Program-made: the position numbers and the translations under genes
Assembly: GCA_030147925.1 (NCBI GenBank)
Contig: JASBUK010000095.1
Span: 1 to 64,000, forward strand
Length of the DNA: 64,000 nt
Direction: 5' to 3'
From: Trueperaceae bacterium
GTDB taxonomy: Bacteria > Deinococcota > Deinococci > Deinococcales > Trueperaceae
Shown here: positions 218-62,151 of the stretch, one piece after another
How the letters are laid out: every line of letters begins with the position of its first letter
Position numbering within the stretch: position 1 is the first letter of the stretch
The notes under the pieces: generated by a model
Database searches by the model: none
The model's input: the letters and a program-made list of their open reading frames with translations, nothing else
Told to the model about the DNA's origin: nothing

Positions 218-1537
218 ATGTTTCAGAGCTTAGGCGATAGACTCCAATCTGTTTTTGAAAACCTGCGTGGTCGCGGCAAACTGACCGAAGTCGAGGTCAA
301 GGCCGCCCTGCGCGAGGTGCGTATTGCCCTTTTGGAGGCAGACGTTAACCTAGAGGTGGCTAAGGATTTCACCAAACGGGTGCAGGAAAAGGCCATTGGC
401 TCTGAGACGTTGATGTCTTTACAACCCGACCAGCGCGTAATTTCTATAGTGAATGAAGAGCTGGTCGAACTCTTGGGTGGCAAGGCCGCGCAACCAAAGC
501 TAAAAAACGAGGCTAACGTCTGGATGCTCATGGGTTTGCAGGGCGCGGGTAAAACCACCACTGCGGGCAAACTGGCTTATAAGTACAAGGCGCAGGGACG
601 TCGGCCACTGCTGGTAGCCGCCGACACGCAACGGCCTGCGGCGCGCGAACAGCTTCGTGTTTTGGGCAAGCAGATCAATGTTCCGGTCTTGGAAGTAGAG
701 GACAACGAGCCGCCAAGTCGCACCAAAGAGCGTTTGCAGGATTATCTCAAAAACGACTTTCGCGACCTGATCATCGTAGACACCGCCGGACGCCTGCAAA
801 TCGACGAAAGCTTGATGGACGCTCTTGCAGAGTTAAGAGACGTGCTTAACCCCAGCGAGTCTATTCTGGTAGTAGACGCCATGACCGGTCAGCAGTCTCT
901 GCCGGTGGCAAACAGCTTCGATCAGCGTATTGGCATCTCCGGCTTAATCATGACCAAGCTAGATGGTGACGCCCGTGGCGGCGCTGCCTTATCGGCTAAG
1001 CATGTGACCGGCAAGCCGATTTATTTTGCTGGGATGAGCGAAAAGATTGACGGGCTCGAGCCCTTCTATCCTGATCGCATCGCCGGGCGCATTCTGGGCA
1101 TGGGTGACGTGCTCACCTTAATCGAAAAGGCCAAGGCTATAGAAGGCGATGACGAAGAAGACATCGCCAGCTTAAAGGATTTCAGTCTGCAAGACATGCT
1201 CACGCAAATGCGCAAGATCAAGCGGATGGGTTCTTTTGGCGATATTCTCAAGATGATTCCGGGTGCTGGCAAGATGTTGCCGCCCGGAGCCGAGATTGAC
1301 GAAGGCGAAATCGCCCGCATCGAGGCGATTATTTCCAGCATGACCGAGCGCGAGCGCCGCAAACCCGCTGTCCTTAACGCCAGCCGACGCAAGCGTATAG
1401 CGGCGGGTTCCGGCACTACCGTACAAGACGTTAACCGGCTGATGAAGAATTATGAACAAATGAAAAAGCTCATGAAACAGATTGGTCGCCGTCCGCCGGG
1501 TCGGGGTCAGGGAATAGGACGCGGCTTTGGCCGTTAA
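218..1537 (+). CDS. ffh: Signal recognition particle protein Ffh
   Basis: This is the GTPase of the signal recognition particle. It binds signal sequences of nascent membrane and secreted proteins together with 4.5S RNA and delivers the ribosome to FtsY. The 439-residue protein has the full N-G-M layout: an N helical bundle to about residue 95, a P-loop [10 protein letters not shown] at 106-115, DTAGR at 188-192, TKLDGD near 245, and a methionine-rich M domain from about 325 to the basic, glycine-rich tail. The length is typical. AAAGG lies 4 bases before the ATG. It is the first gene of a run with rpsP, khpA, rimM and trmD. No SRP RNA gene was found in the window. Confidence 0.98.
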
Positions 1538-1591
1538 AGCAGATAAACTTATAAGTGAGTTGCCGCAAAAATGCGGCCCCAGGAGGATAGC

Positions 1592-1909
1592 ATGGTAAAA
1601 ATTCGTCTTACACGCATGGGTTCAAAAAGAAATCCGCACTACCGGGTTGTCGTGGTCGATGCCCGCAAAAAGCGCAGCGGTGACTACATCGAGTCATTAG
1701 GCTATTTTGATCCACGCAAAACCGTCGAAACACCCCTTAAGATAAACACCGAGCGTGCTCAGTATTGGCTCGGTCAGGGCGCCCAGCCGACTGACACCGC
1801 CATTCGCCTGCTCGAGCAAGCCGGAGTAGTTCTCGGTAGCGTCTTGCGCAAACGCGCCAAGAGCTATAAGGCCCGCCAAGGCGAAGCCGCTAAAACCGCC
1901 GAGGCTTAA
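1592..1909 (+). CDS. rpsP: 30S ribosomal protein S16
   Basis: Small-subunit ribosomal protein that binds 16S rRNA early in assembly. The chosen ATG at 1592 gives 105 residues beginning [18 protein letters not shown], the near-invariant S16 amino terminus. It is preceded by a strong AGGAGG (1581-1586) at 5 bases' spacing. An upstream in-frame ATG at 1571 would add seven residues but has no ribosome-binding site and does not match the family. The gene lies 54 bases after ffh and 8 bases before khpA, the usual order in many bacteria. Confidence 0.98.
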
Positions 1910-1917
1910 AGTTTAAG

Positions 1918-2148
1918 ATGTCGCTCGAGCTCGTCACCTATATTGTTCAAAATCTCGTCTTGGAACCCGATAAACTCCAAATCGGAGTTAAGCGTGATGG
2001 GCGCGGGACGCGCATCGAGATTAGCTGCGCCCCCGATGATGCCGGTCGGATAATTGGTCGTGGTGGTCGCGTTATCAACAGCATCCGCACCCTGGCCAGA
2101 GCCGCGACCGATGGCCGCGAACGCATCGAAGTTCATTTGCTTGACTAA
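1918..2148 (+). CDS. khpA: KH-domain RNA-binding protein KhpA
   Basis: Small single-domain RNA-binding protein of 76 residues. The KH signature is visible as a GRIIGRGGR loop near residues 43-51, followed by a helix INSIRTLARAA. KhpA proteins typically sit between rpsP and rimM, as here, and in firmicutes pair with KhpB to affect cell elongation and RNA handling. That role is family knowledge, not shown here. The gene is 8 bases after rpsP. A GCTCGAGC palindrome overlaps its first codons. Confidence 0.93.
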   Translation: MSLELVTYIVQNLVLEPDKLQIGVKRDGRGTRIEISCAPDDAGRIIGRGGRVINSIRTLARAATDGRERIEVHLLD

Positions 2149-2161
2149 TTAGACTCACCCC

Positions 2162-2680
2162 ATGAGCTATACCCCAGACGCAGGCTATGTCCTTATCGGA
2201 AAGTTGGGTAAAACCTTCCAGCTTGAAGGGGGTCTGCGTTTTTATGGCTTAAGCGAAGCGGAGATCGCCGCCATTTATGAACTAGACACGGTTTTTATCC
2301 CCGGCCTGGACAAGCTTAATATCAAGCAGGTTCGTAGCGTGGGTAGCAGTGTGGTGCTTTATCTCGCCGGAATTAACCACTTAGCAGCCGCCAAGGCCTT
2401 GGTGAACAAAGAGGTCTATGCTCGAGCCAAGGACTTACCAGAACTTAATCCGGGAAACTATTACCTCGACACTTTGCTTAAATTACCGGTCATAGGCGAG
2501 GCCGGAAATCTGGGAACCGTCACAGACGTTATCAAAGCAGGCAGCCAGGATTTGCTGGTCGTTAGCGGAGAACAAGAATACCTCTTGCCCCTGCAAGCTG
2601 ACTACATACGTATAGAAGCCGCTGCCATTTATGTAGAAAACGCGCCGGAAGACCTTTTTGAGCTGCACAAACCCGCGTGA
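2162..2680 (+). CDS. rimM: Ribosome maturation factor RimM
   Basis: 16S rRNA processing factor that binds S19 and helps mature the 30S head. The 172-residue protein has the RimM N-terminal beta-barrel ([20 protein letters not shown]) and a PRC-barrel-like C-terminal half ([21 protein letters not shown]). No Shine-Dalgarno is seen. Instead TAGACT stands 6 bases before the ATG, so a leaderless internal start is possible in addition to readthrough from khpA. Its stop overlaps the GTG start of trmD by 4 bases (GTGA), implying translational coupling. Confidence 0.95.
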
Positions 2681-3739: not shown

Positions 3740-5503
3740 GTGCGACAAACTTTTAAGGACCTTTACGCTTATGTAAAACCCTACCCCGGCAGGTTTCTAA
3801 TCGGTCTTGTGGCTCTTATTGTCTCCAGCTTTTTCGCCACATTCAGCCCCATCATCGTCGGTAATGCCATCAACGCCTTATCAGAAGGCCGCATGACTCT
3901 AAGCACCATCTGGGGATATGTGCTGGCTATTTTAGCGGTTGTGGGCTTAAGTGCTTTTGCCATGATCCTCGTCAGGCGCAGCATCCTTTACGCCAGCTGG
4001 GAAATCCAGTTTGATATCCGACGGAACATCTTCGCACACCTCACCCGACTGAGCGGCAATTATTACGACAACCATCGCGTCGGCGACATTATGACCCGTT
4101 TAACCGCAGACCTAAACGCCGTGCGCATGCTTATCGGCGTCGGCACCTTTCAGGGCATGAGCGTCTCTTTGGTAATTGCCTTTACGCTCTACCGCATGTT
4201 CAGGCTAAATCTGAGCCTGACCCTGCTGACGCTACTGATTATCCCCCTTATCACCTTGAGTTTTTTCCTGCTAATCCGCATCATCCACAGACGTTACGAA
4301 AGAGTGCAGGAAAAATTTTCCGATGTTTCGGCAATGGCTCAGGAAAACTTCAGCGGCATTCGCGTGGTCAAGGGCTTTGGCATCGAAACACGTGAAGTTG
4401 AAAACTTTAAGACCTTAAACGATGAATTTATCCGCCGCAACCTCTCTCTTACCCGAATCGAGGGCACGCTTTTCCCCTTGGTGGAGCTGCTTTTTGGCCT
4501 GACCATTTCCGTGCTCTTGCTGATCGGGGGACGTTTTGTCATTGGCATTGGCAGCGACTTAAGCATTGGCGGTTTTATCGCCTTCGTACTTTTGTTTGAG
4601 GGCATCCAGTGGCCGCTTATCGGTCTGGGCTGGATCGCCAATGTGGTGCAGCGCGGCATGACCTCCTGGGGTCGCCTAAAAGCGATTCTCAACGAAGAGC
4701 CCGATATTAAAGACACCGCTGAGACTGACATGACGCTTACAACCATCAAGGGTCATATAGAGTTTAAAAATGTCACGCTGGCCTTTGGCGACCTTATGGC
4801 GCTTGATAATGTCTCCTTTAAGGTTAAAGCCGGCGAAAGCCTGGGCATTACGGGCCGCACCGGAGCGGGCAAAACCATGGTTGTCAATCTTATCGCCCGG
4901 CTGCTCGAGCCCAGTAGCGGCAAGATTTTAATTGATGGCATAGACATTAAGCGCTATCCTTTAGAAGTGCTCAGAAAGCATATTGGGGTGGTGCCGCAAG
5001 AGCCGTTTCTCTTTTCTGATAGCATCGCTGAGAACATCGCCTACGGCGTGGAATTTGATAATGCCGAAGAGCTAAAGACCCGGGTTCGCGAAGTGGCTAA
5101 GTTAGTCCAGCTAGCCGGGGACATCGAAGACTTTGCCCAGGGCTACGAGACCATGCTGGGTGAACGCGGCGTCACGCTCTCCGGCGGGCAACGCCAACGC
5201 ACGGCTATGGCCAGGGCCATTATCCGCGACCCGGCGATACTCATACTTGACGATGCCCTTAGCGCAGTTGACACCCAGACCGAGGCTCGCATCCTCGAAG
5301 GACTAAAGGAAGTAACCGCCCAGCGGAGCAGCATCATTGTGGGCCACCGCATTTCGGCCTTTCAAAACACCGACCGCATCTTAGTTTTAGAAAATGGTCG
5401 CATTGCCGAAGAGGGCAGTCACGAAGAACTCATCGCGCTTGACGGTTGGTATGCGGATATGGATCGGCGCCAGCAGCTTGAAGCCTCACTCGAGGCCGCC
5501 TGA
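3740..5503 (+). CDS. Heterodimeric ABC exporter, subunit A (degenerate catalytic site)
   Basis: Transmembrane ABC exporter half: six helices in the first ~310 residues, then a nucleotide-binding domain. Motifs seen are Walker A GRTGAGKT, Q-loop VPQEPFLF, signature LSGGQRQR, Walker B AILILDDALSAVD and H-loop GHR. The catalytic glutamate after Walker B is replaced by aspartate (DD, not DE), the hallmark of one subunit of heterodimeric exporters such as TmrAB or TM287/288. The GTG at 3740 is chosen because a GGGAGGA site precedes it by 5 bases; an upstream GTG at 3704 lacks one. The partner gene follows at 5693. The substrate is unknown: drugs, lipids or peptides are possible. Confidence 0.93.
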   Translation: MRQTFKDLYAYVKPYPGRFLIGLVALIVSSFFATFSPIIVGNAINALSEGRMTLSTIWGYVLAILAVVGLSAFAMILVRRSILYASWEIQFDIRRNIFAHLTRLSGNYYDNHRVGDIMTRLTADLNAVRMLIGVGTFQGMSVSLVIAFTLYRMFRLNLSLTLLTLLIIPLITLSFFLLIRIIHRRYERVQEKFSDVSAMAQENFSGIRVVKGFGIETREVENFKTLNDEFIRRNLSLTRIEGTLFPLVELLFGLTISVLLLIGGRFVIGIGSDLSIGGFIAFVLLFEGIQWPLIGLGWIANVVQRGMTSWGRLKAILNEEPDIKDTAETDMTLTTIKGHIEFKNVTLAFGDLMALDNVSFKVKAGESLGITGRTGAGKTMVVNLIARLLEPSSGKILIDGIDIKRYPLEVLRKHIGVVPQEPFLFSDSIAENIAYGVEFDNAEELKTRVREVAKLVQLAGDIEDFAQGYETMLGERGVTLSGGQRQRTAMARAIIRDPAILILDDALSAVDTQTEARILEGLKEVTAQRSSIIVGHRISAFQNTDRILVLENGRIAEEGSHEELIALDGWYADMDRRQQLEASLEAA

Positions 5504-5692
5504 TGTCGGCTTTCGCTCATGCTCAAAATCAATGTGGCTTTTGCTCGAGCCTATTAGAAACGATAACTAAAAGAAAAATTGCACGACTACCTTTTAAGAC
5601 GCTAAACGAATTTTTTATAAGATGGCTAGAAATTCAAGATTATTCAACTACCAACTTTCAAACTTTGAACTTTTAACTCCCAGGAGTAAGCC

Positions 5693-7638: not shown

Positions 7639-8454
7639 TTACTCGCTTTGCTTAAGCCCGGCAAAGAAGTCATCTACCGGTGGCTCAGGGAAAGCACCGC
7701 GCAGCCCTCCTAAAGTAAAGGTCTCGTGGCCAAAGAGCTCGAGCCACTCTTTTTCGCTGATATCGCCAAACGACGAATTTGGGCCCGTCTGTGAGCGGTG
7801 CGCCCGAATCGCCGACCGCTTCTGCGGCATCAAGTATTTGATATCAAAATTAGCTGCCAGCGAGGCTTCCGAAACACCATAGACTTTTGGATCAAGTTTT
7901 GCCAGTGGTGAATTATTACGCCGCGCCTGCATCTGCCGCAGCCGCTTTTCGGTCATCACCGAATAAAAAAGTCGCTGTGGTGCAGGTTGTGGCAGGTTGC
8001 CCGCCGACCAAAAGGTAGCTGTCACCACGCGATGCATTATCAGGTGATCCACATGTCCGTAAATACCGTGCGGGTCAAAAGTCAGCATAATTTGTGGCTG
8101 AATCTTTTGAATATGCGTCAGTAGCTTGAGCTCGAGCTCTCTCTCACCGGCATGCATAAGTGCCTGGCCATTATCATGTTGGGTGCGGTCCTGCCGCCCC
8201 GAATCGTGATAGCCAAGGAAAATCGGCGTTTGGATACCAAGTGCTTGACAAGCGTCTTTTAGTTCTTGCTCACGCAAGCTACCCACATCATTCACCGACC
8301 CCAAACTCGGGTCGGTAATCTTGCCGGATTCGCCACGCGTAGCACAAATTAGCTGAACATTAACACCTTCGGCTGCGTAACGCGCCAAGGTGCCGCCAGA
8401 GCCAAACACTTCATCATCAGGGTGGGCAAAGACTGCCAGTAGGGTCTTAGTCAT
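7639..8454 (-). CDS. PIG-L family N-acetylglucosaminyl deacetylase (LmbE-like)
   Basis: Zinc-dependent deacetylase of the LmbE/PIG-L family, 271 residues. The metal-binding AHPDDE motif lies near residues 11-16, with TRGESG following and a further histidine motif in GHVDHL near 135. Family members remove acetyl groups from GlcNAc-linked thiols or sugars (MshB, BshB) or act on antibiotics. A closer BshB1 match lies at 43151, so this paralogue may act on another substrate or be the bacillithiol-conjugate amidase Bca; the choice is not decidable by eye. TAAAAT lies 5 bases before the ATG, suggesting a leaderless message. The gene converges on the ABC exporter gene, 17 bases away. Confidence 0.88.
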   Translation of the reverse strand: MTKTLLAVFAHPDDEVFGSGGTLARYAAEGVNVQLICATRGESGKITDPSLGSVNDVGSLREQELKDACQALGIQTPIFLGYHDSGRQDRTQHDNGQALMHAGERELELKLLTHIQKIQPQIMLTFDPHGIYGHVDHLIMHRVVTATFWSAGNLPQPAPQRLFYSVMTEKRLRQMQARRNNSPLAKLDPKVYGVSEASLAANFDIKYLMPQKRSAIRAHRSQTGPNSSFGDISEKEWLELFGHETFTLGGLRGAFPEPPVDDFFAGLKQSE

Positions 8455-10818: not shown

Positions 10819-11021
10819 TTTCCCTCCCGATGCTCTGTTTTAAGTCTGAACCTTTTGCCTAAAAAGCTCGAGCTCGTTACAAATACATCGCTGATTTCTT
10901 GTTCGTATATTAACACTAATATTAGGCATATTCATTGTTATATTTATCACATATAACGGCGTTTTATACTCTGCGGCTTAACTTCCAATAAATCACATAA
11001 CTTTCTGCTAGCCTTATAACT

Positions 11022-11681
11022 GTGTTTTTTGCTAAAAAGTTGCTTTCTTTGAGTCAAAAATGGCAGCCTGTAAACACTTCTTTACAGGCTATCTTACTGA
11101 CAAACAACTTAGGGAAGCAGGCGGCTCGCTATCTGATCTTTTTACCCAGTTTGCTCACCGGGCTTATTGGTGCCATCTGGCTTTTAATCAGACCACTTAA
11201 TCTTGCAGCAACAGCGGGACCCTTGACTATTTTGCTTACCGCTGTGCTGCTTGTACTGGCACTGCTGGGTGGTGCCTGGTTGCTCGAGCGCTTCTCGCCT
11301 TCATTTCGTTTTGCCAGCAAGCTACTAGAGCGTGCGCTGGAGTACTTTCCCATGTCTATACCGCTGGCGCTTAGTTTGGCTGCAGTTACAGCGGTAGCAG
11401 AGGAGCTTTTCTTTCGCGGCGCACTCTTACCGCTCATTGGCGTCTGGGGTCAGGCGCTGCTCTTTGGTCTGATGCACCCGGTCCCGCGCAAAGGCTGGGC
11501 CTATATGGTCTACAGCTTTGTCGCCGGTCTGTCCTTTGGCTATGCCACCCTTTATACCGGCAGTCTCTGGGCCGCTACGGTGGCACATTTTGCCATTAAT
11601 CTACAGGGTTTTTTAGAAGTGCGGGCTTTGCAAAAGCGCAAACGGCAAGTCATGGCCTCTAATACCGATTCCCCTAGTTAG
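11022..11681 (+). CDS. CPBP family intramembrane glutamic protease
   Basis: Membrane protease of the CAAX/Abi (CPBP) family, 219 residues with several hydrophobic helices. The catalytic set is complete: EELFFRG (E127, E128, R132), FGLMHP (H152) and HFAIN (H189, N193). Bacterial members mature peptides or give self-immunity to bacteriocins; no bacteriocin gene is visible nearby. The start is uncertain: the GTG at 11022 lacks a ribosome-binding site, and a TTG at 11040-11042 is an alternative. The gene is bracketed by inverted copies of the bipartite repeat. Confidence 0.85.
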   Translation: MFFAKKLLSLSQKWQPVNTSLQAILLTNNLGKQAARYLIFLPSLLTGLIGAIWLLIRPLNLAATAGPLTILLTAVLLVLALLGGAWLLERFSPSFRFASKLLERALEYFPMSIPLALSLAAVTAVAEELFFRGALLPLIGVWGQALLFGLMHPVPRKGWAYMVYSFVAGLSFGYATLYTGSLWAATVAHFAINLQGFLEVRALQKRKRQVMASNTDSPS

Positions 11682-11836: not shown

Positions 11837-11909
11837 TGATCGGGCATTGCTAAAAACGTTTGGAGCAAAATGGAGTAAACTGCTTCAAGCAAAACTCCGG
11901 GAGGTTACC

Positions 11910-13619
11910 ATGATGAGATTTACCACCGTCCTCGTTCTTTTTTTATTATTGGGCAGCCTGGCTCTGGCTCAACCGACAATCGCCTGCCCGGACGACAGTG
12001 ATACGCTGCGTAGCTACGAAATTCAGGGCAGTGAGCGCCGCTCGATCTATACCGGAGAAACCGTGAGTCTTGAGGCTGTGGTCACAGCTACCTTTCTTGC
12101 CGACGACGCCCTGGGCGGCTTTTTTGTCCAGGACCCTCTGGGTGATGGCAAAGCTGCTACCTCAGATGGCCTGTTTATTCGCCTGCCCCGCAGCGGGCCG
12201 CTAAAAGATACGGCTATCGCTGCCGGAGATATCGTGCGTGTAAGTGGCAAGGTGCTTGAGCGGGGCGAACAAACTCAGTTAGACAGACTCAGCGAACTCA
12301 GCGTCTGTGGTTATTACGGCCTAATAACTCCAACCGATGTCCAGCTTGACATGGCCTCAGCCACCGACTGGGAGCGTTATGAAGGGATGCTGATAAGGTT
12401 TCCCGAGGTTCTAACCGTCACCGAAACCTATAACCTGGGCCGCTATGGTGAAGTGAGCCTCTCGGCGGGGGGGCGTTTGTATCAGCCCAACAACGGTCAG
12501 GATGCCACAGACAATGCCGCGCGTCGGTTGCTGCTAAACGACGGCAGCACCGTCGAAAACCCCGATATTATCCCTTATCTGCAGGCGGACTTAACCCTCC
12601 GCTTAGGTGACACCGTGAGTGATCTCACGGCTGTCGTGGTCAATTACGGTCTGAATGCCTACCGGCTCGAGCCCGCTATTGCGCCTCGGTTTGAGCGTGC
12701 CAATCCACGCCTATCACAACCCAGCGACGTTGGCGGCAGTCTTAAAGTGGCAGGCTTTAACGTCTTGAATTTCTTCAGCAGCTTACAAGCAAGAGGAGCC
12801 GACAGCAGGGAGGAATTTTTACGCCAGCAAGAAAAGATAGTCAGCGCCTTAGCAGCTATTAACGCCGACGTGTTTGGCTTAATCGAAGTGGAAAACAACG
12901 GCGAAAAAGCTATCGGCCAGCTTACCAAGGCTCTAAATACGGCCGTAGGAGCAGAAAACTACACCTTTGTTCCAGACCCGGACAGCGGCACGGGCAGCGA
13001 CCAGATAAAACAGGCGCTGATTTACAAACCTGGCAAATTAGAGTTGCTTGCCGTCAGCAGCGACCCTGCCGCCATTCATGACCGCCCACCGGTGGCCGCT
13101 ACTTTTCGGCAGTTGGACAGTGGTGAGATATTCACCGTGGTGGTGGCGCATTTTAAATCAAAGGGGGGCTGTCCGCCCACCGGTGATACCGACGAGGGTC
13201 AGGGTTGCTGGAACTTAAGGCGTGGCGCGCAAGCACAAGCCCTGGCAGATTTTGTGACAAAACTACAAGAGCGCAGCGGCGACCCGGACGTACTGATAGT
13301 AGGTGACTTAAACAGCTACCGCCTGGAAAATCCCGTCAAGCTGTTAGAAAACGAAGGCTTTGTCAATCTGGACAACCGTTTGCCTTTAGACGAGCGCTAT
13401 ACCTATGTGTTCTTTGGCGAGTCCGGAACTCTGGATTATGCCTTGGCCAGCAGTGAGCTCGATCCGCAGGTGAGCGGTTTCACCATCTGGCATATCAACA
13501 GCGACGAGCCACGCGTGCTGGATTACAACACCGAGTACAACCCGGCTTATGTCTATCGCCCTTACCCGTTTAGGTCATCCGATCACGACCCGGTTATTGT
13601 TGGTCTGGATCTTGAATAA
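11910..13619 (+). CDS. Secreted extracellular nuclease (ExeM/NucH type, endonuclease/exonuclease/phosphatase)
   Basis: Exported nuclease of 569 residues. The signal peptide ends SLALAQ. The first ~250 residues form an OB-fold-like region (GDIVRVSGKVLERGEQTQL). From about 285 an EEP catalytic domain follows: VAGFNVLNFFSS, FGLIEVENNG (metal-binding Glu), VAHFKSKGG, VGDLNSY and SSDHDPVIV at the end. Cysteines in GGCPPTG and GCWNL may form a disulfide. The ATG at 11910 is chosen for its GGGAGG site and signal peptide; the frame could extend to 11847. It likely degrades external DNA for nutrient use or biofilm remodelling. Its 3' end overlaps the convergent next gene by 26 bases. Confidence 0.9.
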   Translation: MMRFTTVLVLFLLLGSLALAQPTIACPDDSDTLRSYEIQGSERRSIYTGETVSLEAVVTATFLADDALGGFFVQDPLGDGKAATSDGLFIRLPRSGPLKDTAIAAGDIVRVSGKVLERGEQTQLDRLSELSVCGYYGLITPTDVQLDMASATDWERYEGMLIRFPEVLTVTETYNLGRYGEVSLSAGGRLYQPNNGQDATDNAARRLLLNDGSTVENPDIIPYLQADLTLRLGDTVSDLTAVVVNYGLNAYRLEPAIAPRFERANPRLSQPSDVGGSLKVAGFNVLNFFSSLQARGADSREEFLRQQEKIVSALAAINADVFGLIEVENNGEKAIGQLTKALNTAVGAENYTFVPDPDSGTGSDQIKQALIYKPGKLELLAVSSDPAAIHDRPPVAATFRQLDSGEIFTVVVAHFKSKGGCPPTGDTDEGQGCWNLRRGAQAQALADFVTKLQERSGDPDVLIVGDLNSYRLENPVKLLENEGFVNLDNRLPLDERYTYVFFGESGTLDYALASSELDPQVSGFTIWHINSDEPRVLDYNTEYNPAYVYRPYPFRSSDHDPVIVGLDLE

Positions 13620-14341: not shown

Positions 14342-14815
14342 TTACAGCGAAGCGTCCAGGGCTCGAGCCAGATTGGCCATCTCAATTGCCCCTGTTGCCG
14401 CTTCAAAGCCCTTGTTACCGGCTTTGGTACCGGCCCGTTCGATGGCTTGCTCGATGGTATCGGTGGTCAGCACGCCAAAAATCACCGGGACACCCGTTTC
14501 CAAGGCAGCAGTCGCAACCCCGCTGGCCGCCATACTGCACACATAGTCATAATGGCTGGTTGCCCCACGAATCACTGCCCCTAAGGTAATCACGGCATGA
14601 TACTGGCCGCTGGCTGCCAGTTTTTTGGCGACAAGCGGAATCTCCACGGCTCCCGGCACCCAGGCCACGGCGATATCGGCCTCGTCGATACCGTGACGTT
14701 CCAGGGCGTCTTCTGCACCTTCTAATAAACGTTTGCTGATAAAATCGTTAAAGCGGCTCACGACAATGGCAATCTTGAGCCCGGCAGCGTTTAAGGATCC
14801 TTCAAAATGTCTCAT
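14342..14815 (-). CDS. ribH: 6,7-dimethyl-8-ribityllumazine synthase
   Basis: Penultimate enzyme of riboflavin synthesis; condenses the ribityl-aminopyrimidine with dihydroxybutanone phosphate in a 60-mer or pentamer capsule. The 157-residue protein has the family landmarks [36 protein letters not shown] with catalytic His, and [17 protein letters not shown]. The ATG at 14815 follows AGGGG; the open frame extends further to 14854 without support. No other rib genes are in the window, so ribH is detached from a rib operon here. No FMN riboswitch was seen upstream. Confidence 0.97.
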
Positions 14816-15012: not shown

Positions 15013-15020
15013 AACTTCTT

Positions 15021-18415: not shown

Positions 18416-18430
18416 TATTTAGGGCTTGCC

Positions 18431-42147: not shown

Positions 42148-42534
42148 ATAAACGCCTCTCAATGAGGCGAAAGCTAGTCTAACAAAGCTGCTTGAGTTTG
42201 ACAAGTCTTATTCAGCGCCAATTTATACCAAATCAATCTAAAGGTGTCGTAGTTTGAATCATCTAAGGATACGCTCTCGCGGGCGGTTTTAATGTCACCT
42301 TGGTATTACTCCAGCCACCAGCCTATGTCACTTTATCTTAAAAAGGTTTTAGGACAACACCATAAAGCTTCCGGTAAAGCAGATACCGGGATGTACAATC
42401 TAAACTGTGAAGACTAGTTTTGTAAGTAGTGTTCTGCATTTGAGAATCTATTTGCTCTGGGTGCGCGGGGGCTCGAGCCATTCTAAAGAGCCAGGTGCAA
42501 CTTTCGCGCTTTTCGCGCTGAGGAGAAACATATT
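42148..42534. other. Intergenic stretch before plsY
   Basis: It holds the tRNA-Asn promoter side on the minus strand and the plsY leader. One GCTCGAGC site lies at about 42471. No protein-coding frame or clear promoter was identified with confidence; TGTACAATCTAAACT near 42392 is a possible weak promoter region. Confidence 0.4.
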
Positions 42535-48399: not shown

Positions 48400-49713
48400 A
48401 TGAGTAGTGAAACCGTCACAACCGATGCTAACCGTATCAAAGAAGTAACTCTGAGCCTGCTCCAGCGGGTCTTGCCTGAAAAACGCCCCTTCGCAGTAAG
48501 GCTTTGGGACGGCACCTTGCTGCCCGCCACGCTGCCGTCCATCACCGGCGAACCGGCGACGACACTGGTGCTCAGGGACGAAACAACCCTGGGAGTGATG
48601 CTGCAACTGCCACTCGACCTCAACATGGGCGAAGCCTATCTGCGTGGCGAGGTCGAGATAGAAGGCAACATCGAGACTGTGTTCGGCCTGCTCGAGCAGG
48701 CCTCGCTGCGCCTTTCGCCACTTGACTGGATCGGGCTCGCCAAAGAGGCGATGACGTTGCGACGCCGGCGTGACTCGTCCCCTAGCGCCCTGGCTGCCAA
48801 GATGAGCGGGCGTAAGCACTCCCGCGACCGTGACCGTCAAGCGATAACGCATCACTACGACCTCTCCAACCGCTTCTATAAACTCTGGCTGGATGAGCGG
48901 ATGGTCTACTCCTGTGGCTACTTTCCTGACGGGAACGAGACCTTGGACGAGGCGCAGGCGGCCAAACTCGATCTCATCTGCCGCAAGTTGCAACTTAAGC
49001 CCGGCGAACGGCTCCTAGACATCGGCTGCGGCTGGGGCGGTCTGGTCAGCTACGCCGCCGAGCACTACGGGGTAAGCGCGCTGGGCGTGACCCTGTCCGA
49101 ACGGCAGCTTGACCTGGCTCGAGCGCGCGTGCAGTCGGCGGGTCTGGCAGACCGGGTCGAGCTGGCGCTGCAAGACTACCGCGACCTGTCGGGAACGTTC
49201 GACAAGATCGTCAGCGTCGGTATGGCCGAGCACGTGGGGGGCGTGAACTTGGCTGTCTATTTCCAAACAGCCTGGAACCATCTAAAACCAGACGGTCTCA
49301 TGCTCAACCACGCCATTTCACAAGGACCAATTCGTTCCATGTCGGATAAGCGCATAATGTCCGGTGAATTTATGCGTCGCTACGTTTTCCCCGACGGCGA
49401 AATCATACCCGTCTGGCAGAGCCTGAAAGAGGCTGAAGCGGTGGGTTTTGAACTGCGTGACGTGGAGGATTGGCGCGAGCATTACGCCAAGACCCTGCGC
49501 TGCTGGGTACAGAACCTCGAGACCTATTGGGACGACGCCGTGGCCGAGGTGGGGCTCGAGCGGGCCCGTTTGTGGCGGCTTTACTTGAGTGCTTGCGCCC
49601 ACCAGTTCGCCTACGCTCGTCTCGCCGTGCATCAGGCGCTGCTCGCCAAACCTGGGCCGAACGGCCATGTCACCTTGCCCGCTTCCCGCGCCGGCCTCTA
49701 CCACCGGGTTTAG
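48400..49713 (+). CDS. cfa: Cyclopropane-fatty-acyl-phospholipid synthase
   Basis: S-adenosylmethionine-dependent enzyme that adds a methylene bridge to unsaturated membrane lipid chains. The 437-residue protein has an N-terminal lipid-binding region (MGEAYLRGEVEIEGNIE), then ITHHYDLSNRFYKLWLDERMVYSCGYF, the SAM motif LLDIGCGWGGLVSYAAEHYG, and VSVGMAEHVGGVNL. GGGAGGGG precedes the ATG by 6 bases. Base use is richer in G+C and TTC/CTC codons than the neighbours, except for about 49260-49440, so transfer or recombination is possible. Confidence 0.96.
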   Translation: MSSETVTTDANRIKEVTLSLLQRVLPEKRPFAVRLWDGTLLPATLPSITGEPATTLVLRDETTLGVMLQLPLDLNMGEAYLRGEVEIEGNIETVFGLLEQASLRLSPLDWIGLAKEAMTLRRRRDSSPSALAAKMSGRKHSRDRDRQAITHHYDLSNRFYKLWLDERMVYSCGYFPDGNETLDEAQAAKLDLICRKLQLKPGERLLDIGCGWGGLVSYAAEHYGVSALGVTLSERQLDLARARVQSAGLADRVELALQDYRDLSGTFDKIVSVGMAEHVGGVNLAVYFQTAWNHLKPDGLMLNHAISQGPIRSMSDKRIMSGEFMRRYVFPDGEIIPVWQSLKEAEAVGFELRDVEDWREHYAKTLRCWVQNLETYWDDAVAEVGLERARLWRLYLSACAHQFAYARLAVHQALLAKPGPNGHVTLPASRAGLYHRV

Positions 49714-49961: not shown

Positions 49962-50558
49962 ATGGCCTTTGAACTAGCTGATTTACCTTATGCATTTGAT
50001 GCGCTCGAGCCGCATATTGATGCCCGCACCATGGAAATCCATCACGACAAGCACCATGCCGGCTATACCGCCAAACTAAATGCTGCTGTAGCAGGCACCG
50101 ACTTGGCTGCTATGAGCATCGAGGCAATCCTAGCGCTTGGCTTAGACAAACTGTCCACCGCCGTGCGCAACAACGGTGGCGGCTATGCCAATCACAACCT
50201 CTTTTGGGAAGTGATGAGCCCCAGCGGTGGCGGTGAACCCAGCGGCGAACTAGCTGCGGCCATAAACAGTGCCTTTGGCAGCTTTGCCAACTTCAAGGAT
50301 GAGTTTTCCAACACGGCGGCAACCCGCTTTGGTTCAGGCTGGGCCTGGTTGGTAGTGAGTGGCAACCAGCTTGAAGTGTATAGCACCCCTAACCAGGACA
50401 GCCCGCTGATGGAAGGAAAAACGCCCATCTTAGGTCTGGATGTCTGGGAACATGCCTACTACCTCAACTACCAAAACCGCCGCCCAGATTACATCAGCGC
50501 TTTTTGGAACGTCATCAACTGGAACAAAGTCGCAGAGAATTACGCGGCGGCCAAATAA
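49962..50558 (+). CDS. sodA: Superoxide dismutase [Mn/Fe]
   Basis: Dismutes superoxide. The 198-residue protein has the family landmarks [29 protein letters not shown] (metal His), [29 protein letters not shown] and the final metal ligands in [19 protein letters not shown]. Gly-Gly before Tyr and the local pattern fit the Mn form. A GGGGAGATG site precedes the ATG. A TAAGAT box near 49907 may be its promoter. The structured repeat (copy B) and a terminator follow. Confidence 0.96.
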
Positions 50559-51540: not shown

Positions 51541-53744
51541 AATCTAATAGCCAAGCGCTTCCGACCCCTGGTTTTATCCCCTGGTCGATTCCAGCGGCAA
51601 TATTTTTCGGCCTGGGTATTGTCATGGCCGTATTGGGTCTGCCCTGGTGGCTCAGTTTGCTGAGCCTGGGGGTCTTGCCTTTTGCCTGGCGGCCTAAAGG
51701 ACTCAACTGGCTGCTGCTCACAGCGCTGCTGTTACCACTGGGTTTCGCCCGTTACCAGCTGTGGGAAGGTCGTCCCAACCCCATAACTCCGCTGCTGGGT
51801 CAAACGCGCACCGTTTCGGGTTTCAGCGACGGGCGCTACTTGCGCTTAGATGAGCCCAAGGGCGTACGCGTAGCAATCTCCCCGCGCGCGGCTGTGCCCC
51901 CAGGCCGGGTGAGCCTAAGCGGCAGTTTTGCCCAAGCAAACGGCAAACGCAACCCCGGCGGCTTTGACTATCAGGACTACTTAACAAAACGCGGCGTAGC
52001 GGGGCAGTTTCTGGTTGACGAAGTGTTGAGCAGCGACACGACGAAACCCAGCTTAAAAGAACGGCTGCGCTTAGGGGCCATAGCTGGCCTTAGCGAACGT
52101 TCTGCGGCCCTAATGCAAGCCATGACTCTGGGCATCAGAGATGACTTAGGTGACTTGCGAGAGATATTTGCCGCTTCCGGCTTAGCGCATATCCTGGCTT
52201 TATCGGGGCTTCATGTCGGTATTTTGATGGCCGTACTGGGCGTGGCGCTGCGTTTTCTGGGGCTGCTGCGCTATCCCATAATGATCTTGCTTCTATTTGG
52301 CTTTGTACTTTTGGTGGGAGCCAGCCCCAGCGTGCTGCGGGCCGCGGCCATGGTTGCCGCCGCGCTGCTATCGCTGTGGTTGGGCAGCGGACGCATCGAG
52401 CCCTGGCCCGCGCTGGCATTGGCCGCGTTAATCACTCTGAGCTGGAATCCTTCGTTTTTACTAGACCTCTCGTTCCAGCTTTCCTATCTGGCGGTGGGTG
52501 GTATTTTGCTCTTTACTCCGCCCTTAATGAAACGTTTTTTTGCCAACAGTCATCAAAAACTCAAGTGGTGGCACTGGCGCACGCTGCTTATCGGCAGCAT
52601 GGTGGTAAGCGCCTCGGCGCAGGCACTTAGTCTGCCGCTAGTGGCCAGCACTTTTGGCAATGTGCCACTTTTAAGTCCCGTTGTCAATATCGTGGCTATT
52701 CCGCTGGCCAGCTTGTTGGTGCCGCTGGGTTTCTTGGCGGCCCTTTTGGGTTTGGTATCGACTGCGTTGGCTGGACTGGTCAATCTTTTTACGGGATTTT
52801 TTGCCAATATGCTGCTGGGCTTAGCCCAACTGGGCTCGAGCTGGCCGAGTTTGCCCTGGGGTGAAATTTCTGTTTATGGCTATGCTTTTTATGCCATTGC
52901 CATGCTGGCGCTGGCTTTGTCTGCCTGGGGCTATCTGCGGCTCTGGCGTAGCCTGCTGATAGTAAACGTTACGCTGCTCAGCTCTATGCTAACAGTGGCA
53001 GAAAATCAGCCACCGGAGATTGTTTTTTTAGATGTGGGTCAGGGCGACAGCACCCTTATTCGTTTACCTGGTCGCATTGAAATTTTAATTGATGGCGGCG
53101 GTAGCCCCTTTTCGGATTTTGATGTGGGGGCACAAACGGTAGTACCCGCCCTAAGGGCGCTAGGTGTGGACGAGCTCGAGCTGGTCATAGCCAGTCATCC
53201 TGATACCGATCACGTCGAGGGTCTAATCAGCGTGCTTAAACTCATGCCGGTAAGACGGCTTGTTGTTGGCGTTCCCAAACCCGGCGACAGCGTATTTGAC
53301 AAGCTAATGGCTGCCGCCGAAAGAAACCGGGTACCGGTGGAAGCAGTTCTGCGTGGTGAAAGTTTAAAGCTGGGCAATGCCCGCTTGGATATTCTCAACC
53401 CACCCCGCGAAGCCTATGCCGATGACAACGACAATTCCGTTGCCTTTGTGCTTAATATAGATGAAGTTCCCAAGGCTCTATTGCTGGGAGATATCTCGAC
53501 AGAGGTAGAAGCCGAGCTGGCCTTTCCCGATGTTGACGTGCTCTTAGCCGGACATCATGGCTCGCGCTTTTCGACTTCGGAAGCGCTGCTAAGAGCCGCT
53601 CAGCCCGAACAGGTGGTTTTGTCCTATGGCCTCAACAACTACGGCCACCCCAACCCGGACGTAGTAGCACGCATAAAAAGCAGCGGGGCAAGCTTGCGCG
53701 AGACTTACCGTGAAGGGGCAGTGCGTATTTCGCTGGCTCGCTAA
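51537..53744 (+). CDS. comEC: DNA internalization protein ComEC/Rec2
   Basis: Inner-membrane channel that brings single-stranded DNA into the cell during transformation. The 735-residue protein has an N-terminal OB-like DUF4131 region, the Competence domain with many helices ([21 protein letters not shown] near 215), and a C-terminal metallo-beta-lactamase-like domain ([36 protein letters not shown]). Full length. Translationally coupled to comEA. With the repeated GCTCGAGC motif it raises the question of sequence-specific uptake. Confidence 0.95.
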
Positions 53745-53869: not shown

Positions 53870-54619
53870 ATGCTGACACCCGTGCGCATCCTTTCGGACA
53901 ATGGTCCGATGCGCGTTGAACTGGCGCGCTGGCAAAACCAACTGGTAGTGGTCAAACGACTCCGGTCAGGTTCGCCACTGTTAGAGCAGCGCCTTGAGCG
54001 CGAAGCCGCCGTGGTTAAAAAGCTCAAACACGAGAACATCATTCCCTTATTGGCAACCGAGGGAGAAAGCCTTATTTATGCTTATTGCGCCGGAGTATCT
54101 TTAGCAGATGCACTCTCAGGAGGTGCGCTTAGGCTCGAGCGGGCCGTCAGGATTGTCAGCGATGTATTAAGGGCACTGGATTATGCTCACAACTTAGGGG
54201 TAATTCATTTCGATGTCAAACCGGCTAATATCATCATCAAAGGAGAGCAAGCCCTGCTGACCGATTTTGGTTTTGCCAAAGATTTAGGGCTCACCGCCAT
54301 CACCACACCCGGCATGTTTTTGGGCACACCGAATTATATGGCCCCAGAACAGTTTCAGGGTAAACGCGATGATCCGCGCAGCGACCTCTACTCGGCTGCC
54401 GCCGTACTTTATCACATGCTGACAGGCGCACCACCTTATGGCAACCAGGTCTTGCGTTTTTTAGCCGGTGATACGCGTCTAAAGCTCGATCCCCTGCCTG
54501 CTAGCGCCACTCCGCTTGTCGGGGTGATAAGCACCGCCCTATCACGCTCACCAGAGGCGCGTTTCGATTCTGCCGCCGACATGCTCTCGGCGCTTAAGCA
54601 CGCTTATGATCTCGCATGA
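53870..54619 (+). CDS. Minimal Hanks-type Ser/Thr protein kinase
   Basis: 249 residues: a bare kinase domain without membrane helix or PASTA repeats. Lys29 in VVVKR, Glu in the next helix, the catalytic loop HFDVKPAN (113-120, with HFD in place of HRD), DFG at 132-134, and GTPNYMAPEQ for substrate binding are all present. The glycine-rich loop is poorly formed (SDNGPMRVE), so activity should be tested. It sits between comEC and holA, overlapping the latter by 4 bases (ATGA). TAAATT stands 7 bases before the ATG. Confidence 0.9.
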   Translation: MLTPVRILSDNGPMRVELARWQNQLVVVKRLRSGSPLLEQRLEREAAVVKKLKHENIIPLLATEGESLIYAYCAGVSLADALSGGALRLERAVRIVSDVLRALDYAHNLGVIHFDVKPANIIIKGEQALLTDFGFAKDLGLTAITTPGMFLGTPNYMAPEQFQGKRDDPRSDLYSAAAVLYHMLTGAPPYGNQVLRFLAGDTRLKLDPLPASATPLVGVISTALSRSPEARFDSAADMLSALKHAYDLA

Positions 54620-56948: not shown

Positions 56949-57884
56949 ATGCTCCTTAGCGTGAGTACCGCGCTTATAGACCGTTTTTTTAACCGCGACG
57001 AGCGGGCACTGGCCAGGGCCATCAGTTTAGTTGAAAGCGGGCTTAGGCAAGGCCAGCAGTTATTACAGACAATGCGTCCTCACGGGGGCAAAGCAGTAAT
57101 CATCGGCATCACCGGCTCGCCAGGAAGCGGCAAAAGCACGCTGACAGACAGGCTTATTGCCGTGGCCAGAGAGCGGGACAAGAGGGTAGCCGTTATTGCA
57201 GTCGATCCGACCAGTCCTTATAGTGGCGGAGCGATTTTGGGCGACCGCATACGCATGATGCGCTGGCACCAGGATGAGAATGTCTACATCCGTTCGATGG
57301 CGACCCGGGGACACTTAGGTGGTTTGGCTGCGGCTACCTTGCAGGTAGTGGCGTTGCTTGACGCCTATGGTTTTGATCTGATCTTTATTGAAACGGTGGG
57401 TGTCGGCCAATCGGAAGTGGATATCGTAGAAGTGGCCGACAGCACCGTGCTGGTGCTAACTCCGGGGCAGGGTGACGGCGTGCAGGCTTTTAAGGCCGGT
57501 ATCATGGAAATTGCCGATATTTTTGCCATCAACAAGTTTGACTTACCAGGTGGGCCCAGGCTCAAACGAGAGATTCAGGCGGTGCTCGAGCTAAATCAGT
57601 GGACCCCCGGCAGTTGGCAGCCGCCTATTAGCGAAACAATCGCCTCACAAGGGCAGGGCATTAGTGAACTCTACGAGCATATAGAAGCACATTATCGTCA
57701 CCTGCAAAGCTCCGGTAAGCTTAGGCAAGTAAAACAGCAAAGGGCGCGTTTTGAAATTGCTGCGCTCATCACTGAAGAAGTCCGGCGCAAGGTTCACGCT
57801 CGCGAGCAAGGCTTTATCGAGGCCGTGCTTCACGGTCAGATGAGCTTAGAAGAGGCGGTTAAGGAGCTACTTAGGGAAAGCTAG
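56949..57884 (+). CDS. meaB: MeaB/ArgK-type G3E GTPase
   Basis: GTPase chaperone that protects and reloads adenosylcobalamin-dependent mutases such as methylmalonyl-CoA mutase. The 311-residue protein has P-loop GSPGSGKST at 56-64, VIAVDPTSPYSGGAILGDRIRM, IRSMATRGHLGG, FIETVGVGQSEVDI and NKFD for guanine recognition. No mutase gene is visible in the window, so the partner lies elsewhere. The start is uncertain: no Shine-Dalgarno, ATG at 56949. Confidence 0.93.
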   Translation: MLLSVSTALIDRFFNRDERALARAISLVESGLRQGQQLLQTMRPHGGKAVIIGITGSPGSGKSTLTDRLIAVARERDKRVAVIAVDPTSPYSGGAILGDRIRMMRWHQDENVYIRSMATRGHLGGLAAATLQVVALLDAYGFDLIFIETVGVGQSEVDIVEVADSTVLVLTPGQGDGVQAFKAGIMEIADIFAINKFDLPGGPRLKREIQAVLELNQWTPGSWQPPISETIASQGQGISELYEHIEAHYRHLQSSGKLRQVKQQRARFEIAALITEEVRRKVHAREQGFIEAVLHGQMSLEEAVKELLRES

Positions 57885-58561: not shown

Positions 58562-59548
58562 ATGTCTTTTTTAGTTCGCGGCCTGGCGGCTGGCGGTGGC
58601 ATTCGCATAGTCGCAGCCGATACCACCAAACTTGTTGAAGAAGCTCGAGCACGCCACGAAGCCAGCCCTACGGCGGCGGCGGCTCTGGGCAGGGCGCTCA
58701 GCGGAGCACTTTTGCTCTCACACGTGCTCTTAAAGAACCCGCAGGATCGCGTTACTCTGCGTCTGCGCGGTAGTGGCCCGCTTGGCGGCGTTATCGCCGA
58801 GGCCGGTTTAGATGGTGCGGTGCGCGGTTATGTCACTAACCCTGATATTGATCTGCCCCCTAAAGATGACGGCAAACTCGATGTGGGTGGGGCTCTGGGT
58901 CGCAATGGTGACATTCAGGTTATCCGCTCTCACGCACCTTATGGCGAGCCCTATAGCAGCAGCGTCGATCTCGCCTCTGGTGAAATCGCCGAGGATATTG
59001 CCATGTTTTTGGCGCAATCCGAACAGATCAACTCGGCAGTGCTCTTAGGGGTCTATCTAGAGGCTGGCAAAGTCGTTCAATCCGGCGGGATTATCTTACA
59101 GGCCTTACCCGGCGCTGACGATGCCGCCCTGACCCTGCTAGAAGCCAATATTCGCGCCTTTGGTCAGCTTACTGATGCTATGCGCCAAGGTTCGCTGCTT
59201 GAAATTCTTGAGCAACTGTGCTGGGGGCTCGAGCTCAAATTATTAACCAAAGACGCCCTGCCGCTAAAATTTGATTGCCGTTGCAGTGATGAAAAAGCGC
59301 TTGACGCCCTGGCCTATTTCAGCCCGGCGGAACGCGAGCAGATGATCAGCGAAGACGGTGGCGCCGAGGCCGTCTGTCACTGGTGTGGTGAGAAACGCTG
59401 GATGGCCCCGGAGGCCATTCGCAGCATCTCCAGCGATGAAACCCGTTGCCCCGACTGTGGCACCCTCTGGCACCGCGAGGGCCAAGCGACCATGATTCGC
59501 GAGCAGGAAACCTGCTCCTGTGGCCGCCCGGTAATGCTCCCGGTTTAG
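58562..59548 (+). CDS. hslO: Redox-regulated chaperone Hsp33 with an extra C-terminal cysteine module
   Basis: Holdase chaperone switched on by oxidation. The 328-residue protein starts MSFLVRGLAAGGGIRIVAAD with GAAAG-type AGGAAAAG upstream. The classical zinc site CRC (239-241) and CHWC (272-275) is present. Beyond it about 50 residues add a second pair, CPDC (296-299) and CSC (318-320), ending CGRPVMLPV; most Hsp33 proteins stop near 290. This may be a second metal or disulfide switch. The open frame upstream to 58529 is not supported. Confidence 0.95.
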   Translation: MSFLVRGLAAGGGIRIVAADTTKLVEEARARHEASPTAAAALGRALSGALLLSHVLLKNPQDRVTLRLRGSGPLGGVIAEAGLDGAVRGYVTNPDIDLPPKDDGKLDVGGALGRNGDIQVIRSHAPYGEPYSSSVDLASGEIAEDIAMFLAQSEQINSAVLLGVYLEAGKVVQSGGIILQALPGADDAALTLLEANIRAFGQLTDAMRQGSLLEILEQLCWGLELKLLTKDALPLKFDCRCSDEKALDALAYFSPAEREQMISEDGGAEAVCHWCGEKRWMAPEAIRSISSDETRCPDCGTLWHREGQATMIREQETCSCGRPVMLPV

Positions 59549-60506: not shown

Positions 60507-60507
60507 G

Positions 60508-60590
60508 CAAGATAACCCTCAACTTTCCCCACTTATCTTTCCACTCACTACTTTCTACTTCTTACCAACTCGTGTAAGGCGGCTAACAAA
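60508..60590 (-). repeat. Bipartite repeat, inverted
   Basis: On the minus strand it reads GCCTTACACGAGTTGG, then AAGTAGAAAGTAGTGAGTGG and GGGGAAAGTTGAGGG. The GCCTTAYACRAGTTG block is shared with the copy at 11685-11836. Confidence 0.65.
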
Positions 60591-60615
60591 TCTTATGCAG
60601 CTTTGTTAGCTCCGA

Positions 60616-60663
60616 TTGACAATAGAATAAAGTGGTCATATAGTTATTTTTAGCTATGTCTAA
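60616..60663 (+). promoter_or_regulatory. mntH promoter with DtxR/MntR-like palindrome
   Basis: TTGACA (60616-60621) and TATAGT (60639-60644) are 17 bases apart, close to consensus. TTAGCTATGTCTAA (60650-60663), of the form TTAG-N6-CTAA, sits at the expected start point. DtxR/MntR repressors bind TTAGG-type dyads of this shape, and the next gene is a manganese importer. The palindrome is short and could be chance. Confidence 0.6.
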
Positions 60664-60786
60664 CTTTGAATTTCTGAAATCCTTATTTATTAACAAAAAG
60701 CTTAGTTACAATACCGTGATAAATCTGCAAGACCTCGGTTTTAACCGTGTTTTTAAGCCCGTTGACAAAATCCCAGCTCCGACACT

Positions 60787-62151
60787 GTGTACAAGAACTA
60801 TCAGCAAATGAGACCTTCTCCTAAGCAAAATGATGGTGCAAATCCGGCTGATGACCAAACGCAGGCCAGCTCGAGCATGGATAAGCAGGCCCTACGTGGC
60901 GCTCAGGAAGTGCTCGAGCGCAAAAAAAGCCCTCGGCGGGGCTGGCATCATCTCACACCCTTTTTAGGCCCAGCTTTTATTGCGGCAGTAGCCTATGTTG
61001 ACCCCGGCAACTTTGCTACCAATATCGAAAGCGGCGCCACTTTTGGCTATCAACTGTTGTGGGTGGTGCTCTGGGCCAATCTCATGGCCATGTTGGTACA
61101 GGCACTCTCGGCCAAATTAGGCATTGCCACCGGCAAAAACCTACCCGAGGTCATCCGCGACCGCTATCCAAAGCCGCTGGTCTGGTTTTACTGGGTTCAG
61201 GCCGAACTGATCGCTATGGCCACCGACCTGGCCGAGTTCTTAGGAGCGGCACTGGGTTTTCAACTGCTCTTTGGTATCCCACTTTTCTGGGGCGGCATCT
61301 TAACCGGCATTGCCACCTTTGCCATCCTGGGCTTACAGCGCTATGGCTTTAGACCCTTAGAAGCCGTTATTGCCGTGTTAGTCGCCGTAATTGCCGGCGC
61401 TTATGTCATCGAGATTTTCTTGAGCAAACCCGGAGGGCTCGAGCTGGTTCGTGGACTGGCCATTCCCAGTTTTCAGGGTCCGCAAAGCGTTTACTTAGCT
61501 GCTGGCATCTTAGGTGCAACGGTTATGCCCCATGTGATTTATCTGCACTCAGCACTCACCCAAAACCGTATTGTGCCCCGCACTGCAGAGCAACGCCGCC
61601 GCCTCTATCGCTTTAATCTAATAGACGTTTTTATTGCCATGGGTATTGCCGGTTTTGTCAACATGGCCATGCTGGCTATGGCTGCAGCTACCTTTAATGC
61701 CACTGGCAACCAAGACATTGCCGATATCACTACCGCCTACCGTACACTCACACCTCTTTTAGGAGGTCTTGCCAGTGCGGCTTTTGCCATTTCCCTATTG
61801 GCTTCGGGGCTTTCTTCTTCAACAGTTGGCACCATGGCCGGGCAAGTGATTATGCAAGGCTTTGTCCGTTTTTCCATTCCATTGTGGGTGCGCCGCGGTA
61901 TCACCATGCTGCCTTCACTAGTCATTATTCTGCTAGGTCTAGACCCCACCGCCGTCCTGGTGCTTTCACAAGTGATCTTAAGCTTTGGTATTCCCTTTGC
62001 CCTGATTCCGCTGCTGCAATTTACCCGCAAGCGCGAAATCGTCGGCGAACTAGCCAATAGCAAGCTAACCAGCGTTGTCGGCGGCATTATCGCCGCCGTG
62101 ATCATTGTGCTCAATGCCTTTTTGCTGCTGCAATTATTTCAGAGTTTTTAA
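60787..62151 (+). CDS. mntH: Nramp-family divalent metal (Mn2+/Fe2+) importer
   Basis: Proton-coupled Mn2+/Fe2+ importer of 454 residues with about 11 helices. The first helix has the metal-binding [10 protein letters not shown] and the sixth helix [15 protein letters not shown] charged N-terminal tail of about 60 residues is longer than usual. Start uncertain: GTG at 60787, ATG at 60808 or ATG near 60877 are possible, none with a ribosome-binding site. High manganese content is a known trait of radiation-resistant Deinococcus, and sodA lies 10 kb upstream. A palindrome at the promoter suggests metal repression. Confidence 0.94.

Follow-up and report, generated by a model that had tools for sequence, protein, structure and literature searches.

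The highly iterated palindrome (HIP) of cyanobacteria, HIP1, was reportedly described by Robinson in 1995, and HIP1 proper is accompanied by GATC and CGATCG methylases. As a class, HIPs, which in cyanobacteria include alternatives to HIP1, comprise one grossly over-represented octameric palindrome, whose density ranges from hundreds to some 2,700 copies per Mb (PMC4390886). Deviants of such a palindrome are biased to positions 1 and 8, its inner hexamer is not in excess outside the octamer, and the genome carries a methylase specific for the inner palindrome, which in cyanobacterial HIP1, GCGATCGC, is CGATCG (PMC4390886). Elhai (2015) proposed for HIPs a G-meC-directed mismatch repair, in which a 5-methylcytosine (m5C) methylase modifies the first C (PMC4390886). 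Here we describe the octameric palindrome GCTCGAGC in a Trueperaceae bacterium of the phylum Deinococcota, starting from a stretch of 64,000 nucleotides (GenBank assembly GCA_030147925.1, contig JASBUK010000095.1, positions 1 to 64,000), referred to as the window. The genome of the window (G000) is a metagenome-assembled genome whose 151 contigs add up to 2,982,247 bases and whose completeness is rated 100%. The HIP-like nature of GCTCGAGC is well established, and it is a HIP of a kind that differs in core, phylum and methylase chemistry. The balance of evidence tips slightly towards the view that GCTCGAGC is the HIP of this Trueperaceae genome, kept up by CTCGAG methylation together with distance-limited repair or selection.

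The first-pass annotation of the window had counted about 50 copies where about one was expected. The number is exactly 50, all between 1054 and 61444, against a mean of 1.37 and a maximum of 4 in dinucleotide shuffles. The sites, which carry no strand, are as follows (coordinates in the window):
1054..1061, unstranded, GCTCGAGC site, exact match
1810..1817, unstranded, GCTCGAGC site, exact match
1923..1930, unstranded, GCTCGAGC site, exact match
2420..2427, unstranded, GCTCGAGC site, exact match
4903..4910, unstranded, GCTCGAGC site, exact match
5543..5550, unstranded, GCTCGAGC site, exact match
7737..7744, unstranded, GCTCGAGC site, exact match
8130..8137, unstranded, GCTCGAGC site, exact match
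10866..10873, unstranded, GCTCGAGC site, exact match
11282..11289, unstranded, GCTCGAGC site, exact match
12665..12672, unstranded, GCTCGAGC site, exact match
14361..14368, unstranded, GCTCGAGC site, exact match
15298..15305, unstranded, GCTCGAGC site, exact match
18259..18266, unstranded, GCTCGAGC site, exact match
18613..18620, unstranded, GCTCGAGC site, exact match
18843..18850, unstranded, GCTCGAGC site, exact match
19476..19483, unstranded, GCTCGAGC site, exact match
20751..20758, unstranded, GCTCGAGC site, exact match
21689..21696, unstranded, GCTCGAGC site, exact match
22587..22594, unstranded, GCTCGAGC site, exact match
24676..24683, unstranded, GCTCGAGC site, exact match
25618..25625, unstranded, GCTCGAGC site, exact match
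26176..26183, unstranded, GCTCGAGC site, exact match
26990..26997, unstranded, GCTCGAGC site, exact match
28496..28503, unstranded, GCTCGAGC site, exact match
29516..29523, unstranded, GCTCGAGC site, exact match
32455..32462, unstranded, GCTCGAGC site, exact match
33956..33963, unstranded, GCTCGAGC site, exact match
35676..35683, unstranded, GCTCGAGC site, exact match
36718..36725, unstranded, GCTCGAGC site, exact match
36758..36765, unstranded, GCTCGAGC site, exact match
41052..41059, unstranded, GCTCGAGC site, exact match
41502..41509, unstranded, GCTCGAGC site, exact match
42471..42478, unstranded, GCTCGAGC site, exact match
45325..45332, unstranded, GCTCGAGC site, exact match
45556..45563, unstranded, GCTCGAGC site, exact match
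46476..46483, unstranded, GCTCGAGC site, exact match
48690..48697, unstranded, GCTCGAGC site, exact match
49117..49124, unstranded, GCTCGAGC site, exact match
49554..49561, unstranded, GCTCGAGC site, exact match
50003..50010, unstranded, GCTCGAGC site, exact match
52834..52841, unstranded, GCTCGAGC site, exact match
53174..53181, unstranded, GCTCGAGC site, exact match
54133..54140, unstranded, GCTCGAGC site, exact match
57584..57591, unstranded, GCTCGAGC site, exact match
58643..58650, unstranded, GCTCGAGC site, exact match
59227..59234, unstranded, GCTCGAGC site, exact match
60869..60876, unstranded, GCTCGAGC site, exact match
60912..60919, unstranded, GCTCGAGC site, exact match
61437..61444, unstranded, GCTCGAGC site, exact match

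G000 as a whole contains 2,625 copies of GCTCGAGC, that is, 880 per Mb versus about 17 per Mb expected, which falls within the copy-number range of the HIP class. Over-representation statistics were obtained from a 355 kb sample of G000 and spacing statistics from 1.17 Mb (39%). The palindromic 8-mer count with a Markov null, suggested in the first-pass annotation and run on the 355 kb, singles out GCTCGAGC as the sole strongly over-represented 8-mer: its 304 copies compare with 19.9 expected under a third-order model, which itself contains the excess, and with 8.0 when the sites are masked and the model is of second order. The remaining 255 palindromic 8-mers sum to 1,091 versus 1,390 expected, and none comes close to GCTCGAGC. 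Neither of the two outcomes that the annotation had set against its own proposal, a count near expectation and an equal excess of related 8-mers, was found, the one-base variants of GCTCGAGC totalling 318 versus 351 expected. A second, far weaker palindrome excess, in the window and sampled loci of G000, concerns GCTTAAGC (39 versus 16), mainly in one frame (24 versus 3). Some palindromic hexamers are depleted in the sample, CGGCCG 12-fold (15 versus 183 expected) and GGATCC, GGGCCC and CGATCG about 4-fold. No methylase matching CGGCCG was seen in G000, and since this word has no A, an N6-methyladenine (m6A) methylase is not the cause of its depletion.

The sites occur in every reading frame and in intergenic DNA, as had been noted before: in the window, 45 lie in open reading frames (ORFs; 5, 8 and 32 by frame) and 5 outside them. 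The commonest frame codes for Leu-Glu, which is what an explanation by codon bias, amino-acid content or base composition would have in its favor. That explanation is refuted. In the 254 ORFs of the 355 kb sample, GCTCGAGC is found 60, 34 and 171 times by frame, whereas shuffling synonymous codons within genes yields 2.7, 3.5 and 6.4 copies (observed-to-expected ratios of 22.5, 9.9 and 26.8); the mirror word CGAGCTCG is close to expectation, and the other palindromic octamers show no excess. Thus, the excess of GCTCGAGC acts on DNA, not on protein or codon usage.

The copies have only 8 bp in common. Positions next to the octamer carry just 0.065 and 0.081 bits, and those farther away at most 0.03 bits. 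Transposon-like repeats were considered as a source of the copies and rejected, since only these 8 bp are shared. One-base deviants are more numerous than expected at octamer positions 1 and 8 (98 versus 55) and fewer at positions 2-7 (220 versus 297), and CTCGAG outside the octamer (67 of 371 occurrences) shows no excess over the approximately 90 expected from base composition. The unit consists of an inner CTCGAG and, as its preferred flanks, an outer G..C pair. The proposal of a HIP1 analogue was upheld on every sequence feature examined: a GC-rich octameric palindrome at about 0.9 per kb, in all frames, with outer-base deviants and an inner-hexamer excess confined to the octamer, to which a statistically associated orphan methylase can be added (see below). 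It differs from HIP1 in its core, CTCGAG rather than CGATCG, in its phylum and in the lack of a PF00145 gene. HIP1 proper is not present, CGATCG being depleted in G000 (14 versus 50 expected in the 355 kb sample).

Iteration of the CTCGAG core extends throughout the order, the outer bases being lineage-specific. Low-GC Trueperaceae also iterate GCTCGAGC; G008, with 36% GC, has 590 copies per Mb versus 3 predicted by composition. Among other relatives, the Meiothermus-like (g25) and Thermus-like (g20) groups bear labels deduced from named hits, genome size, GC and the M.TaqI orthologue; two more groups are f5 and f2-g24. Thermus-like genomes contain 1,200-2,200 copies of CCTCGAGG and 2-19 of GCTCGAGC. 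In the Thermus-like sample, TCGA is avoided five-fold outside CTCGAG (0.19 of expectation) and 64 of 116 TCGA fall within CCTCGAGG, which is apparently the HIP of Thermus and seemingly undescribed. Meiothermus-like genomes have CTCGAG with several flanks at 2-3 per kb. The extreme is found in f5 and f2-g24, where each genome holds 14,690-28,178 CTCGAG (5-8 per kb) with any flank, versus 2-25 copies of the mirror word GAGCTC. In these groups, CTCGAG encodes 69% of Leu-Glu pairs (8% expected), and Leu-Glu outnumbers Glu-Leu in ORFs by about 2.2 to 1 (486 versus 219; 116 versus 48), as though proteins had been altered by the word in the DNA. A lean to Leu-Glu over Glu-Leu is seen in Thermus-like genomes too, without a CTCGAG codon excess. 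In the f5 genomes G028, G032, G036 and G040, CTCGAG is about 54-fold in excess; f5 genomes shun nearly all other palindromic hexamers, with 4-15 copies of GAGCTC in over 4 Mb and almost no GCGCGC, CCGCGG or GGCGCC in the f5 sample. Further differences from HIP1 are the changing flanks around a core found order-wide and the 5-8 copies per kb in some relatives. The comparison of orthologous regions, also proposed at first pass, was run on dnaE: in most pairs, species have more sites in common than the background set by other hexamers (for example, 9 of 10 versus 49% and 16 of 31 versus 14%), part of which may come from re-creation at the same Leu-Glu codons.

The first-pass annotation had further suggested a DNA-uptake signal for natural transformation, which now appears very improbable. 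It had correctly placed comEC in the window; the gene is an ordinary one and, with a small upstream ORF, occupies 51043-53744 as possible DNA-uptake genes. The small ORF is the putative comEA of that annotation. In genome-wide iteration and in density near 1 per kb, GCTCGAGC also resembles the uptake sequences of Neisseria and Pasteurellaceae. However, the latter are non-palindromic, have a longer consensus and occur in excess in non-coding DNA (PMC1939737), whereas GCTCGAGC is a palindrome whose consensus hardly extends past its sharp 8-bp limits and which shows no enrichment between genes, 87% of its sites in the 355 kb sample lying in ORFs that cover 81% of it. Nor do the 5-8 copies per kb (6 per kb for the core in f5) and the switching flanks of the relatives fit the specificity of a receptor.

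The sites are spaced more evenly along G000 than expected by chance. For 1,020 sites with a mean spacing of 1,043 bp, the coefficient of variation is 0.857 versus 0.978 +- 0.03 under the null (z -4.1). Spacings of 0.8-1.6 kb are in surplus (282 versus 238), and those below 100 bp and above 3.2 kb are in deficit. Among 81 control hexamers of comparable abundance, not one reaches this regularity (z -0.9 to +4.8). CTCGAG in other Trueperaceae is evenly spaced as well, more weakly so (z -2.8). The uneven density once described for the window did not stand up: the largest gap, 4,294 bp, is no longer than chance would give (P 0.87), and 4-kb bins, with 2 to 4 sites each, are unusually even. This evenness bears on two further explanations. 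According to the first, the sites are a functionless by-product of mutation or biased repair that converts near-matches to CTCGAG or GCTCGAGC, as in the epiphenomenon reading of Elhai 2015 (PMC4390886). The indifference of the excess to reading frame, the near saturation of Leu-Glu pairs in f5 and the variation of flanks by lineage agree with it; however, under-dispersion is not predicted by position-blind mutation but by a process saturating over about 1 kb, and the total of one-off precursors is lowered only slightly (318 versus 351, as above). We consider such a by-product unlikely, albeit the strongest of the rivals. The second, a binding site for a chromosome-organizing, segregation or recombination protein, would account for the even spacing at about 1 kb and for the sharp 8-bp boundaries, which fit a footprint. 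It is improbable nonetheless: a palindrome lacks polarity of the Chi or KOPS (FtsK-orienting polar sequence) kind, outer bases that switch between genera and the f5 sites with any flank at 6 per kb would be odd for one conserved protein, and no candidate protein was found.

Pfam searches of G000 revealed neither an m5C-methylase domain (PF00145) nor a beta-class amino-methylase (PF01555) in this genome rated complete. Because m5C methylase genes are absent, the G-meC-directed repair model cannot hold for G000, although an m6A form of it could. The genome has a single gene of the N6_Mtase/Eco57I family (C57:4474-6147, minus strand, 558 aa), which combines an NPPF motif with an M.Eco57I C-terminal domain and is an orphan without an endonuclease-like neighbor; the 1.17 Mb sample showed no second DNA-methylase-like ORF. 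The XhoI endonuclease (PF04555), sought as its partner, is absent from G000. The AlphaFold model of the methylase (predicted local distance difference test score, pLDDT, 88.7; predicted template modelling score, pTM, 0.86) is closest to the gamma-class m6A enzymes CamA, M.BseCI and M.TaqI. M.BseCI targets ATCGAT and M.TaqI TCGA, so the two known targets are TCGA-centred like CTCGAG; sequence identity of these enzymes to the G000 methylase, whose specificity is predicted, is about 16%. We infer that the orphan gamma-class m6A methylase of G000 methylates CTCGAG, probably at the adenine. XhoI/PaeR7I restriction-modification offers a partial parallel, with the same hexamer and with XhoI-type methylases that are orphans in several relatives. 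It differs in that G000 has no XhoI endonuclease, its sites are in excess rather than avoided, and its methylase is only a remote relative.

Records encoding the closest proteins come from Truepera, Trueperaceae and Meiothermus, and orphan Deinococcota genes cluster in the methylase tree (3 label changes versus 14 when shuffled) and could have a single origin. Presence of the orthologue is associated with the motif. In 38 Trueperaceae genomes, the motif-to-mirror ratio is 1.3 to 51 in the 9 with an orthologue versus mostly 0.6 to 1.9 in the 29 without (P 4e-5 with genomes as units and 0.011 with genera; G010, whose XhoI-type gene is partial, was not included in the test). The three sampled Meiothermus-like genomes without an orthologue (G035, G058 and G066) have an XhoI-type methylase instead. 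This family, 40-67% alike internally and matching M.BseCI in its C-terminal half, is also found in G088 and G010. Since none of these five genomes has an XhoI endonuclease, their copies are orphans. The tie of the family to CTCGAG comes from G012, where a broken XhoI endonuclease gene follows a member about 110 bp downstream. This restriction-modification pair (L045, L180, L181), with its methylase intact, is an apparent step towards an orphan methylase. The Thermus-like G031 encodes an M.TaqI orthologue (E 2.5e-168). A contig labelled Myxococcota, for which misbinning is possible (JAJRTE010000216.1), carries a 42%-identical orphan orthologue and has 45 CTCGAG versus 5.1 expected, with 0 GAGCTC. 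Homologous methylases from many phyla and plasmids are followed by an overlapping ORF of 217-336 aa (L095, L096, L101, L102, L104, L105, L113, L116, L130, L173). The ORFs overlapping their 3' ends have no Pfam matches and mostly none in PADLOC, which did not reveal specificity; they are probably uncharacterized endonuclease families. Avoidance of CTCGAG near such methylases in other phyla, used as a test of specificity, was inconsistent. The link between methylase and motif is thus supported by an association, which is correlational, and by a plausible predicted structure. The methylase/repair bias put forward at first pass gained an association for its methylase half through this tracking of orthologues, whereas the repair step is one that we infer.

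In the mechanism we favor, the orphan methylase would methylate CTCGAG (or TCGA) at adenine, and the methylated sites would mark strand or position for mismatch repair or another process reaching about 1 kb. New sites would be favored far from the nearest site, and existing ones preserved. Methylases would be interchangeable between lineages, the same role being played in relatives by orphan XhoI-type enzymes (some Meiothermus and others) or by M.TaqI (Thermus-like), and such interchangeability of CTCGAG/TCGA methylases would give a common TCGA-centred core with differing flanks. Extended to the whole order, this would be a Deinococcota HIP system independent of that in cyanobacteria, with orphan methylases of several interchangeable kinds (L040-type, XhoI-type and TaqI-type), where these enzymes place m6A on a TCGA/CTCGAG core as marks about every kb, evenness is kept by selection or distance-limited repair, and Leu-Glu codon pairs have mostly been rewritten in extreme lineages. 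We advance this extension tentatively, at less than even confidence. Several observations weigh against methylation-based upkeep. G008 has a strong motif, yet neither methylase family was found there. Non-orphan homologues, probably parts of restriction-modification pairs, are not accompanied by a CTCGAG excess. No single methylase family is present in all f5 and f2-g24 genomes (PF00145, PF02384 and PF07669 searched), and the 5-8 CTCGAG per kb in these groups is far above, and unexplained by, a 1-kb set point. Even spacing was not found in the smaller Meiothermus, Thermus and f5 samples. As to other methylase classes, no PF02086 ORF was seen in the sampled 39% of G000, PF02086 not having been searched genome-wide.

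Among other features of the window, an ExeM/NucH-type extracellular nuclease gene (11847-13619) may be used for DNA scavenging. A glucan-use locus (23339-31580) comprises a 1,3-beta-glucan phosphorylase of glycoside hydrolase family 149 (GH149) and a GH1 beta-glucosidase beside likely sugar-transport genes.

The open literature searched, with subscription papers outside its scope, contains no report of iterated GCTCGAGC, CCTCGAGG or CTCGAG in Deinococcota, Thermus and Meiothermus included, and CTCGAG does not occur in the text of Elhai 2015 (PMC4390886). What HIP1 does has been an open question since 1995, in part because cyanobacteria gave almost the sole example. An m6A-only genome is evidence against models requiring G-meC, and the even spacing is evidence for a process that depends on distance. 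Another core, different methylases and a natural variety of flanks and densities in a second, unrelated phylum open the way to comparative and experimental tests, probably in the tractable Thermus and Meiothermus.

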